DNA of 38,303 nucleotides, from the NCBI GenBank assembly GCA_015488495.1, contig WFNS01000238.1, positions 1 to 38,303 on the forward strand, given 5' to 3'. The stretch is from Gammaproteobacteria bacterium. GTDB lineage: Bacteria; Pseudomonadota; Gammaproteobacteria; Thiohalospirales; Thiohalospiraceae. Positions 5,226-32,156 of the stretch are shown in pieces (the first letter of the stretch is position 1; every line of letters begins with the position of its first letter). The position numbers and the translations under genes were made by a program. Below the pieces are notes generated by a model. The model had not been told where the DNA came from. It made no database searches and saw nothing but the letters and a program-made list of their open reading frames with translations.

Positions 5226-8200
5226 ATGAAACGGGTATCCGATTGGGGCAGAAAACTGGCGAATTTGGCGCTGGTCGCGATGGTGGGCCAGTTTGTGCTG
5301 GGGGGAACCGCGGAGGCTGCTATCCCGAAGTCTGAGAAGGATGCGTTGATAGCGCTGTATCAGGCCACGGGGGGGAATTCGAGCTGGAGGATCAGCACCA
5401 ACTGGAACAACGTCAAATCCAACGCCTGTCTGTGGCACGGCGTCACCTGTGACACCATCGACGGACAGGATCATGTGGTCGAACTGGATCTCGGTGCCAA
5501 TGGCCTGAAGGGAACCATTCCGGAGTCCATCGGCAACCTGACCAGGCTCAGGGTGCTGGATCTGCATACCAACGAGCTGGAAGGGCCCATCCCCGCGACC
5601 ATCGGTAATCTGGTAGAGCTGGTGGAGCTTCAGCTACAGGACAACATGCTGGAGGGAGCCCTGCCTGCCGAGTTGAGCATGCTGAACAATCTCCGTTCTT
5701 TCTATCTGAGCGGCAACCGCCTGACCGGTAGCATCGACGGGCCGCTGACCCAGGTCATGGCCAACAAGTTTTTCCTCAACGGCCTGGATCTGCGTTACAA
5801 CGGGTTTTATTCCTCCGACCCGGTGCTCCTGCAGAGCCTCAACAGCAAACAGATAGGGGGAGATATCGAGGCGACCCAGACCGTGGACGCCGTCGTTTCG
5901 CGCGTGGATGCCGGGGAGAACTATCTCCGCGTGTTCTGGACTCCGGTGGATTATCGCCAACAGGGCGGATATCTCATCAAGGTTTATGACGAACAGGGTG
6001 CGCTGGTGGAAAGTGCTCGTGTCGAGGGCCAGAGTTCAGGGACCTGGGTGGAGAGCAAAGAGAGCGACACTGCCACGGTGATCGGTCTCGAGAGCGGGAC
6101 CGTTTACGAGATTGTGGTCCATTCGGTGACCAAGCCCCACGCGGACAACAAAAATGAGGTGATCAGCGACGGATTGCTGGCCGGGCGCTATAGAGTGAGC
6201 ACCAAGGATGCGGATACCGATGGCGACGGCATCCAGGACAACCTGGAGGGCAAGAAGACCGATCAGGACAGTGATGGAGACGGCATCCCCGACTACAAGG
6301 ACAGTGACGATGACAACGATGGTTTCCCCACCGCCCAGGAGCTTCCTGTCAGCAGGGATACCGACGGTAACGGGACGCCCGACTACCTGGACGATGACGA
6401 TGACGGCGACGGGGTCCCCACCAAGGTGGAGACCAATCCGGCCGTCAATTCGGATCCCCTGCGCAAGGATACCGACAACGACGGCATTCTCGATGGTGTG
6501 GAGATCGGCTCCGACCCGGCCAATCCCCGTGATACCGACAGGGATGGAGACATCGATGTCCGCGATCCGGATGACGACGGTGATACCATTCCGACCCGTG
6601 ACGAGAGCCAGAACGATTTCGATGGCGACAAGTTGCCCGACTATCGGGATGCGGACGATGACGGGGACGGGATTCCCACCCGAAACGAAGGGCCGCCGGC
6701 ACAGGACACCGACCGTGATGGCGCCCCTGACTATCTCGATGCCGATGATGACAACGATGGACTCCTGACGCGGGACGAGTTGAAGATGGGAACCGATCCG
6801 CTGAGTGCGGACAGTGATGGCGATGGTATCGGAGACAAGGACGAGGTGGGAGGCAACATCGACCAGCCGGTGGACAGCGATGGTGATGGAATCATCGATG
6901 CAAACGACGAGGACGATGACAACGACGGCATTCTCACCCGGGAAGAGCCGGCCAGCCGTTTGAACAGTGATGATGACGGCGATGGTCTGCTCACCAGCGT
7001 GGAGTTGACGTTGGGTACCGATCCCTACAATCGGGACAGCGACGGAGACGGTATCGAGGATCGTGAAGAGGTGGACAACCCGGCGGCTCCCCGTGATACC
7101 GACAAGGATGGGACCATCGATGCGCGGGATGCCGACGACGATGACGATGGACTGTCCACCCGAGACGAAAAGGCAATTGGTACCGATCCCTATCGCAAAG
7201 ACAGTGATGGTGATGGTATCGCGGATGCAGACGAGGTGGGGGACGACGTGGCGAACCCGCGTGATACCGATACCGACGGCATCATCGATGCCCTGGATGC
7301 CGACGACGACAACGATGGCCTTTCCACCCGGGATGAACGGTCCTTGGGAACGGATCCTCACAGCAAGGACAGCGACAAGGATGGTGTGGAAGACAAGGTG
7401 GAAGTGGGGCGTTTCGTCGAGAAGCCGCGGGATACCGATGGAGATGGAAAGATCAATGCGCTCGACGCCGATGATGATGACGATTCCATCCCCACCAGTC
7501 AGGAGCTGACAGGCGACTTCGACAACGATGGTATTCCAAACTATCTGGATCCGGACGATGACAACGACGGTAAACCGACGCGTGTCGAGGTCCAGGGTGG
7601 AAGTGCGATAGAGCTCGACAGTGACTCGGATGGCACGCCAGACTATCAGGATAATGACGATGCCGTGGTGACCACCTCGATGGGAGGTGGCTCCATGGGG
7701 TTCGGGTTGTTCCTGCTGCCGCTGTTCTTCCTGTTGCGCCGTTTTCCGCTGCGCTGGCTGTCGGTCCTGCTGGTTGCAGTAGTGGGTCAGGCCGCCGCCG
7801 CGGAGGGCATTTCCGTTTTCGATGAAAGCGGTGAGCCGGTGATCATCGAGACCATCGACCTCTCTGAAAAGCCGGCCGGAGCGGCTCAGGAGAAGATGGA
7901 GGGACAGCCTTCATCCCGCAGCAGTGCGGAGACTCTCTCCGAAACCGTCGACGAGATCCCTGCTGCGGCTACGGCTAAGGTGGAACCCGAGGCTGAAGGG
8001 GATAACGCCACCCCGGTGAGCGAGAAGAGCGAACCGGGGGATGCTGCCGAATCCAAAGGGGATCAGGCAGGGGAGCCGGATCAGGCCGCAACTACGGAGG
8101 CGGCGAAGGGTGAAACCGGTCAGGCGGAAGAGGCGAAGCCAAGACAGGGCGAGCGTTTCTATATGGGACTCGGTGCCGGCGCGACGCGGCTCGACCCGGA

Positions 8201-29228: not shown

Positions 29229-30668
29229 ATGGATTTTGAGATACCGAATATGAGCGTAGCTCTTCCCGAACTGTTCGTCCTTGGCATGGCCTGCCTTATC
29301 CTGGTGATCGATCTGTTTCTCACCGAGAAGACGCGGATCGTCACCTATCTCCTGGCCCAGGCCACCCTGATAGGTGCCGCCATTGCCTCCATGGCGCATC
29401 AGTTTGGCGCTCCCGAGATAGCCTTCGATGGAAACTTCATCCGTGACGGGATGGGGGATACGCTGAAAGTGTTCATCTATCTTTCGGCATTCGTCGTGTT
29501 TCTCTATTCCCGCTCCTATCTGCAGGCGCGCAATCTGTTCAAGGGGGAGTTCTACGTGCTGGGGCTGTTCGGTGTCCTGGGCATGATGGTGATGGTTTCG
29601 GCACAGAGTCTCCTGACGCTCTATCTCGGCCTCGAGCTGCTCTCCCTTTCCCTATATGCGCTGGTGGCGATGAACAGGGATTCCACCTATGCGTCGGAAG
29701 CGGCGATGAAATATTTCGTCCTCGGCGCGCTGGCGTCGGGAATGCTGCTCTACGGCATGTCGATGATCTATGGAGTCACCGGCTCCCTGGTGTTGTCGGA
29801 GATCAGCGGGCAGGTGGCGACACTCGGTGCCGACGACATGGTGCTGGTGTTCGGGTTGGTGTTCACCATCGTCGGGATCGCATTCAAGCTGGGGGCGGTG
29901 CCGTTTCACATGTGGGTACCCGACGTGTACCAGGGTTCTCCCACGGCGGTGACCGTCTATATCGGTACCGCGCCGAAGATCGCGGCGTTCGCCATGGTGA
30001 TGCGGCTGCTGGTGGATGGTCTCGAGGGGCTGCATCCCCATTGGCAGGGGATGTTGGTCATCCTGGTCATCCTGTCACTGGCAATCGGTAATATCACCGC
30101 CATTGCGCAGACCAACATCAAGCGCATGCTGGCCTATTCCACCATCGCCCACGTGGGCTATCTGCTGCTGGGTGTGCTGAGCGGGACCGAAGCGGGGTAC
30201 GCCTCCTCCATGTTCTACACCATCGTCTATGCGCTGATGAGCCTGGGAGGCTTCGGTATGATCATGCTGCTGAGCCGGGCCGGCTTCGAGGCCGACAAGC
30301 TGGAGGATTTCAAGGGACTCAACGAGCGCAGCCCCTGGTTTGCATTCATGATGTTGATCCTGATGTTCTCCATGGCCGGCGTGCCGGTGTTTCTCGGCTT
30401 CTGGGCGAAGCTGTCCGTCCTTTCCGCTGTGGTCGATGCCGGCCTGGTCTGGCTGGCAGCCGTTGCCGTGGTATTCTCGATCATCGGCGCATTCTACTAT
30501 CTGCGGGTGGTCAAGCTGATGTATTTCGACAAGCCGGTGGATAATACGCCCATTGAGGGTGATATCGATGTGCGGGTGATGTTGAGCGCCAACAGCTTGG
30601 CCATTCTGGGGCTGGGGCTGTTCCCCGGTGGTCTGATGGGGCTCTGCACAAGAGCGATGGGCTTGTAA
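29229..30668 (+). CDS. nuoN: NADH-quinone oxidoreductase subunit N
   Basis: Third antiporter-like subunit and the last gene of the operon, 479 aa from ATG 29229 ([19 protein letters not shown]). Signature stretches are [21 protein letters not shown] and [24 protein letters not shown]. The ORF-track start is GTG 29220, only three codons earlier. ATG is preferred because GGGTG lies 8 nt upstream of it, but either could be used. A strong hairpin terminator follows. Confidence 0.95.
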
Positions 30669-30735: not shown

Positions 30736-30743
30736 GTTTCCGC
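30736..30743. repeat. Left target-site duplication GTTTCCGC
   Basis: The 8-bp sequence is identical to 30896-30903 and directly abuts the left terminal repeat of the MITE. Confidence 0.85.
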
Positions 30744-30895
30744 GTAACTATTCAGCTCACCCCTGAAATCCGCCATTTCTGCGTTGAAAAATGGTCATTT
30801 ACACTCGTAAACTCACATTTTTCGCCTTGAACTGACCAATTTCAGGGGCGATCTGAACAGTTACCGGCCTGTTCCATACCATGCTGAATGGTTAC
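30744..30895. mobile_element. IS66-type MITE (152 bp) with 8-bp target duplication
   Basis: A non-coding element whose left end GTAACTATTCAGC and right end GCTGAATGGTTAC are inverted repeats (12 of 13 match). The 8-bp direct repeat GTTTCCGC abuts it exactly on both sides (30736-30743 and 30896-30903). An 8-bp duplication and ends beginning GTAA are features of the IS66 family. There is no room for a transposase, so it would have been mobilised in trans. Inside, positions 30744-30864 form a large imperfect palindrome ending in a third copy of the terminal repeat (CTGAACAGTTAC). It lies in the convergent gap between nuoN and a minus-strand lipoprotein gene, where it harms neither. Confidence 0.85.
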
Positions 30896-30903
30896 GTTTC
30901 CGC
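30896..30903. repeat. Right target-site duplication GTTTCCGC
   Basis: The 8-bp sequence is identical to 30736-30743 and directly abuts the right terminal repeat of the MITE. The perfect match suggests a fairly recent insertion. Confidence 0.85.
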
Positions 30904-30958: not shown

Positions 30959-31876
30959 TTAAAGCATCTTGGTCACCCAGCTGAGCATGTTACTCTCCAG
31001 ATCTTCCCATCTTTTCAGTAGCTGCCCCTCGTATACACCGTCGCCATCGGAATCCCATTTGATCAGGGCGTGCTTGCCGTCGGGCTGAGCGACGATCTGG
31101 GTCTTGGTGTCGATGGCGCCAGTGATCAGCAGTTCTCCAGCAGTGGGATTGTCACCGCCCTTTCCCTGGAATTTCTTGGAGGTTTCCAGGGCAACACAAC
31201 CATCGATGGCCGAGCTGGTGAGTATCATGGTGCAATCCACCTCGTACGGTCCTTCCCCTTTGCGGCCGATATAGCTGTCGGCGCACCACATCTCGTTGAT
31301 CTTGGCCGATTTGGCTCCCTGTACGAGCTCCAGGTTTTTGGTGGTGCGCGCGGTTACCGTTCTCCTGGCCTGTTCGTCATAGCTGTTGTCAATGGTGACC
31401 TCGCCATTCATGGTCAGCGCATCGGCATTGTTACCGAAAACGAAGTCCTTGTAGCTGTAGTTGGCAACGTAGTTTTGCCCCTCTCTGCTGACAAGGTTCA
31501 CTTCGAGAGCGCCGGCGATAGGAACACCGCGGTAGCTGCAGTTCGAGATGGTGAGCTGAATGGTGTCCCCGGGTTGCTGTAGTTTACCCTTTGCGATAAC
31601 GCTCCCGTTCCCGCCAAAACCGGCCTTGCCGCAGGGAAGTGTCTGGTCGCCTCCCTGGACCTTGGAGGGTTCCACGACGCCCAGCGCAACCGAAGAGAAG
31701 CGCATGGCTCCCACACTTTCACTGGTGACATCGGGAACCTTGGCCTTGGTAATCGTTATGTGTCCACTTTTGGTCTGGAACAGTTCGCTGGCAGGTCCGC
31801 TCTTGTCCGCCAGACAACCCGACAGCGCCACAGGTAGCATGAGGATTACGGAGAATGAGTATTTGAAGTGATGCAT
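30959..31876 (-). CDS. Putative outer-membrane lipoprotein, unknown function
   Basis: 305-aa exported lipoprotein that I cannot assign to a named family. The start is ATG at 31876, with AAGGAG 7 nt upstream; the 19 extra residues in the ORF track are rejected. A type II signal peptide (FSVILMLPVALSGC) has lipobox LSGC, giving Cys about residue 21. Leu at +2 predicts outer-membrane sorting under the E. coli Lol rule. The mature part looks beta-rich, with several internal cysteines (LPCGKAG, ISNCSY, MWCADSY, VDCTM, DGCVAL), and ends with an Asp loop DSDGDGVYEG that could bind Ca. It is a single gene facing nuoN, divergent from lolC. Confidence 0.8.
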   Translation of the reverse strand: MHHFKYSFSVILMLPVALSGCLADKSGPASELFQTKSGHITITKAKVPDVTSESVGAMRFSSVALGVVEPSKVQGGDQTLPCGKAGFGGNGSVIAKGKLQQPGDTIQLTISNCSYRGVPIAGALEVNLVSREGQNYVANYSYKDFVFGNNADALTMNGEVTIDNSYDEQARRTVTARTTKNLELVQGAKSAKINEMWCADSYIGRKGEGPYEVDCTMILTSSAIDGCVALETSKKFQGKGGDNPTAGELLITGAIDTKTQIVAQPDGKHALIKWDSDGDGVYEGQLLKRWEDLESNMLSWVTKML

Positions 31877-32156
31877 GGGTACGCTCCTTGTATACAGCTC
31901 CTGACACGAGGCAATTCGTCCGGAATTGCACACGTTACTTGTGTTTGGATTTTTAAGTATAGAAGAGAATTTCCCCAGTGCATAATGCGTGCTTGATTAT
32001 ATGCTAAGAGTTTAACTGTCTGATTTGTAAGCCAATCTATGGGGGTGAGGCAAGGGGGCAAATGGGGCGGTTAAAGTTTCCTCAGAAGGTGGTTTGGGTT
32101 GGCGAAGGGTACGAATCCATGAAACCTGACCGTCAAATGTGGTTTAATTATCCGCT
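31877..32156. promoter_or_regulatory. Divergent promoter region, lipoprotein gene / lolC
   Basis: 280-bp AT-richer gap between two divergent genes. On - a perfect -10 hexamer TATAAT lies at 32001-31996, about 120 bp before the lipoprotein start, but no good -35 is seen 16-18 bp away. A second -10-like TATACT lies closer. On + the sequence before lolC is TTTAATTATCCGCT with no ribosome binding site. No gene is supported in the gap. Confidence 0.35.

Follow-up and report, generated by a model that had tools for sequence, protein, structure and literature searches.

In the window, by which we mean the whole 38,303-nt stretch of DNA analysed, a miniature inverted-repeat element (MITE) lies between nuoN, whose ORF ends at position 30668 and is followed by a GC-rich terminator-like hairpin, and the 3' end of a convergent gene on the minus strand (30959-31933). 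The sequence, read directly, agrees with the initial annotation, which had described a 152-bp non-coding block with inverted ends and an identical 8-bp sequence on either side: the ends, GTAACTATTCAGC and GCTGAATGGTTAC, pair at 12 of 13 bases, no ORF lies inside, and GTTTCCGC directly abuts both of them (Table 1). Given that GTTTCCGC occurs three times in the window against 1.2 expected, two copies that exactly abut both element ends are not a matter of chance. If two mismatches at most are allowed, the 14-mer GTAACTATTCAGCT has three matches in the window, all inside the element, against 0.12 expected from shuffles. The initial annotation had overlooked an inner right terminus within the element: bases 1-121 (30744-30864) make up a complete GTAAC...GTTAC palindrome, which is followed by a 31-bp tail with a terminal GTTAC of its own. 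Folding of the whole element as DNA gives z = -5.8.

Table 1 Features of the MITE insertion and their positions in the window
Feature	Position	Strand	Basis
Target duplication (8 bp), left: GTTTCCGC	30736..30743	+	Sequence; window counts
Complete 152-bp MITE, IS66-type ends, non-coding	30744..30895	+	Sequence, copies, target duplications
Left terminus GTAACTATTCAGCT	30744..30757	+	Same 14 bases as at the left ends of L057 and L107 (single-ORF IS66)
121-bp palindromic core GTAAC...GTTAC	30744..30864	.	Folding, duplications of 121-123-bp cores, stem pairing
Inner right terminus, GTAACTGTTCAGAT on the minus strand	30851..30864	-	14-mer scan of the window
31-bp tail including the outer right terminus	30865..30895	+	Lineage comparison; mostly GCTGARTAGTTAC-type end
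Outer right terminus GTAACCATTCAGCA	30882..30895	-	Same 14 bases as at the right end of the L107 IS66 element
Target duplication (8 bp), right: GTTTCCGC	30896..30903	+	Sequence; window counts

The element is one of many. By BLAST, the window's own genome (G000) contains about 20 near-complete copies at 84-98% identity, together with decayed ones, and a core-pattern search, for which the reversed pattern gave zero matches as a control, counts 18 there. Further copies had been predicted for the genome and its relatives, and they are found in all seven other genomes of the same genus, with core-pattern counts of 2, 220, 13, 19, 5, 102 and 63 in G001 to G007, as well as in two genomes from other families of the class (G020 with 44 cores and G088 with 10). 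A scan of GTDB representatives returned at least 108 stretches with the MITE; among the matches listed are metagenome-assembled genomes (MAGs) labelled Sedimenticola sp., Gammaproteobacteria, Chromatiaceae and Thiotrichaceae, and one labelled Aquificaceae (label as given). No copy was found in searches of plasmids, phages and IMG/VR viral contigs. Many contigs of G002 start within a MITE copy, that is, the assembly breaks there, and the MITE is probably behind many contig breaks in such assemblies.

Copies were delimited by a profile search together with their GTTAC ends. Among them are 113 distinct insertions in which 7 or 8 of the 8 bases of the target duplication agree (92 of them perfect), each with a duplication of its own sequence; since right ends were chosen for the best duplication, on which the set was afterwards selected, the figure of 113 is to be read as a count, not as a rate. 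Shuffling left against right flanks all but abolishes matches of 7-8 bases, which stay close to what is expected where an element meets its own flanking DNA, and across the delimited copies there is little preference for particular insertion sites. The unit is mostly 152-153 bp long, and some units of 121-123 bp, in L122, L125, L143 and L204 of the relatives, carry 8-bp duplications of their own. Copies without a duplication include contig-end, truncated and older ones, such as L025 with 17 changes relative to the consensus. In L206, the MITE interrupts another repeat with the target duplication GGAAAATG, and eight uninterrupted copies of that repeat have the site once. At the nuoN neighbourhood itself, G003 has the same gene order and no element, but there the intergenic sequence has diverged too far for a single GTTTCCGC to be recognized, so the empty-site argument rests on L206; a comparison of L036 with L192 and L121 was dropped as an empty site, given that the junction alignment is too imperfect. 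The element is thus short, lacks a transposase ORF, has terminal inverted repeats and a target duplication of constant length, and occurs in many dispersed copies with empty sites elsewhere. The independent insertions and empty sites bear out its earlier description as a MITE that makes an 8-bp target duplication. The age that had been read from the unmutated duplication does not follow, given that a perfect duplication is found in 92 of the 113 delimited copies and is therefore no sign of a recent event; copies in the window's genome are on average 5 changes away from their consensus, and the window copy is 3 away.

Other repeats were met in the same neighbourhoods. Downstream of nuoN in G004 (L233) there is a terminator-like palindrome, AAAAAGTGTAACTGCTCATCGAGTAGTTACACTTTTTT, that resembles two abutting MITE termini. 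Related genomes, and the window's own, also contain another family of repeats, unrelated to the MITE and about 161 bp long, with CAGGCC...CATCCTG ends and palindromic segments (L206, in the MITE flanks, and L195, L199, L120, L200, L226, L032 and L075); some of its copies lie between 4-bp repeats of a CTAG/TTAA-like type, which recall the insertion sites of MITEPsy1.

The termini connect the MITE to one branch of the IS66 family. In G002 (L057), a perfect GTAACTATTCAGCT stands upstream of an IS66 transposase gene, of which the first 250 codons are read before a Y1_Tnp (RAYT-like) gene interrupts it (positions 1749-2699 of L057, G002:C39), and in G001 (L056) a C-terminal IS66 fragment is followed by the right end GCTGAATAGTTAC. 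Used as a query, the G002 protein leads to single-ORF IS66 elements in other gammaproteobacteria. One of these, L107, encodes in a 476-aa ORF a protein that is 83% identical to the query over 246 aa and matches the IS66 model NF033517 (E = 1.7e-90); its left end GTAACTATTCAGCT and right end GTAACCATTCAGCA equal those of the window element at 14 of 14 bases each. A match to PF03050 (E = 3e-47) likewise marks the protein of this single-ORF type as IS66. Three others combine GTAAC ends with perfect 8-bp duplications (AATTTTTT in L109, GAAAACCC in L112 and CAAATTTG in L114), so that the MITE and its proposed parent group have in common both the GTAA start with matching ends and the length of the duplication. 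The IS66 assignment made from the GTAA ends and the 8-bp duplication therefore stands. In the MITE-bearing MAG JALSHZ, the same ~38 C-terminal codons of an IS66 transposase are found at five contig ends; the stop codon falls within the terminal GCTGAGTAGTTAC and the downstream flanks are different in all five, which indicates that this MAG contains, besides the MITE, a repeated IS66 element with such ends. G006 has IS66 elements of another type, whose ends are GTAAGCGCTC. Given that this other IS66 type of the same genus ends differently, the match of the MITE ends is specific to one IS66 branch; the IS66 fragments of G004 and G006 were considered as parents and rejected, because their ends do not match. 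Two observations count against a parent of the single-ORF type: L107 has no target duplication, and the likeness between MITE and IS66 elements is limited to about 14 bp per end with unlike interiors, which gives no support to an origin by internal deletion.

A parent IS had been expected in this genome or in close relatives. Among the sister genomes there are remnants in G001 and G002, and five stubs occur in JALSHZ, another assembly with the MITE. In the window's own genome, searches with PF03050, PF05717 and PF13817 found no IS66 transposase, in an assembly that is 94% complete in 301 contigs, where collapsed IS copies can be missing and short single-ORF-type stubs would have escaped. The parent appears to be absent, lost or unassembled there, presumably through loss or non-assembly in the lineage. 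Many MITE copies in a genome in which no IS66 gene was found could also point to a transposase of another family, with the IS66 end match a coincidence; IS256, ISL3, IS1595 and ISAs1 types make duplications of about 8 bp too. We consider this improbable, as it is contradicted by the 14 of 14 bases that each terminus shares with an IS66 element from a different gammaproteobacterium, by the same ends on remnants in two same-genus genomes and on the JALSHZ stubs, and by the specificity of the match for one IS66 branch. It is, on the sequence evidence, highly likely that the element is a non-autonomous MITE whose ends a transposase from the single-ORF ('tnpC only') IS66 branch recognizes in trans; both the choice of transposase and its action in trans we infer. 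Such an enzyme would bind at the GTAACYATTCAGC termini and mobilise either the 152-bp unit or, in some lineages, just the 121-bp core; joining of the moved unit to target cuts staggered by 8 bp would leave the 8-bp duplications.

The palindromic core is well kept. Among 21 diverse copies, the stems retain 96.9% of pairs (cells paired), and nine pairs have changes on both sides, for example GTTGAAAAATG...CATTTTTCGCC versus GTTGGGAAATG...CATTTCCCGCC; there are 41 such cells compared with 14 in shuffles (0/500) and at most 12 with the structure slid along the sequence, counts that are inflated by kinship among the copies. This pairing may reflect selection for the hairpin or copying between the arms. 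The tail varies in sequence by lineage, is usually 31 bp long and has a terminus at its end, mostly of the GCTGARTAGTTAC type. As the outer right terminus keeps a nearly fixed spacing of 31 bp, or about three helical turns, and the stems are kept by compensatory changes, the doubled end or the hairpin might be under selection, for transposition efficiency or for an RNA or DNA role at host sites, a tentative idea to which we assign a rather low probability. That the core primarily serves the cell as a conserved RNA or DNA structure, its mobility being secondary, would account for the retained pairs and two-sided changes and is still very improbable: matches to Rfam are all sub-threshold, with none above the gathering score, copying of one palindrome arm onto the other gives the same signal without selection, and the copies stand at unrelated sites in numbers that range from 2 to 220 between sister genomes. 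A reading as palindromes of the REP/BIME kind, dispersed by a RAYT (REP-associated tyrosine transposase), can practically be dismissed, in spite of the palindromic, multicopy nature of the MITE and the Y1_Tnp-domain gene in the genus that interrupts the L057 remnant, because REPs are 20-40 nt long and make no target duplication, whereas the MITE measures 121-152 bp and has defined inverted ends, 8-bp target duplications at more than 100 sites, and empty sites.

Several variants depart from the standard layout. In L096 (148-298) and L135 (4623-4774) the tail is attached to the other end of the core, which suggests inversion of the core. Copies of 142 bp with an 8-bp duplication occur in L041 (G020) and L219; the L041 copy has a tail of 21 bp behind its 121-bp core where 31 bp is usual, a shortening by about one helical turn. 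A 199-bp version occurs twice in L180 (1355-1553 and 2508-2706) with the same internal insert of ~47 bp, each time within its own perfect 8-bp duplication, and hence this variant has itself transposed. A 221-bp relative of the MITE in G002 (L089 158-378, G002:C48) has the ends GTAACTACTCGGCCAGCCCCTGAAATCCG and CGGATTTCAGGGGTAAGCTGAATCGTTAC, longer terminal repeats and a different interior. Beside a 121-bp copy in L122, a 1008-bp unit (5827-6834) has MITE-type ends and the 8-bp duplication GTATTTTT.

An IS66-linked MITE family is hereby added that is well supported and extends across several gammaproteobacterial families. About 220 copies are found in one 2.4-Mb genome and between 2 and 220 among species of the same genus, and this range, together with the 121- and 152-bp forms, makes a natural series useful for studying the burst and persistence of a MITE when its parent is rare or lost. 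A small literature search found no published description of the family, an absence that is weak evidence; as far as such a limited search shows, the family is undescribed and the kind of element an ordinary, known one.

The closest known systems are the single-ORF IS66 elements (L107, L109, L112 and L114), tnpC-only elements that we take to be ISBst12-like. They share with the MITE the GTAAC-type terminal repeats, the 8-bp duplications (L109, L112 and L114) and the 14-base identity at both ends (L107), but are about 1.5-1.7 kb long with a transposase of 460-480 aa, and similarity in the interior was not seen. Canonical multi-ORF IS66 elements have in common with the MITE the family, the 8-bp duplication and, on the other IS66 type of G006, the GTAA start, but this other type of the genus has GTAAGCGCTC ends and not the GTAACTATTCAGC of the MITE. 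ISPpa5a and ISPpa7 also start with GTAA. Both are canonical multi-ORF IS66 elements of Paracoccus, 2.7-2.8 kb long, that make 8-bp duplications (PMC3281130). The hupL MITE of Thiomargarita nelsonii has 10-bp direct and 19-bp inverted repeats, and its authors found no parent in ISfinder (PMC4853749); like the window MITE, it reaches a very high copy number in a sulfur-oxidising gammaproteobacterium. Among bacterial MITEs with an assigned parent, MITEPsy1 is short and non-coding with inverted ends, 4-nt target duplications and an IS5-like parent (PMC3189936), MITEPye1 is likewise short and non-coding, with inverted ends, target duplications and IS1182 as parent (PMC11578231), and MITECca01 of Cardinium has 169 copies and IS982 as parent (PMC9769881). 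The window MITE resembles all three in being short and non-coding with inverted ends and in its mobilisation in trans, inferred or shown, and differs from them in its IS66-type ends and in the doubling of its right end.
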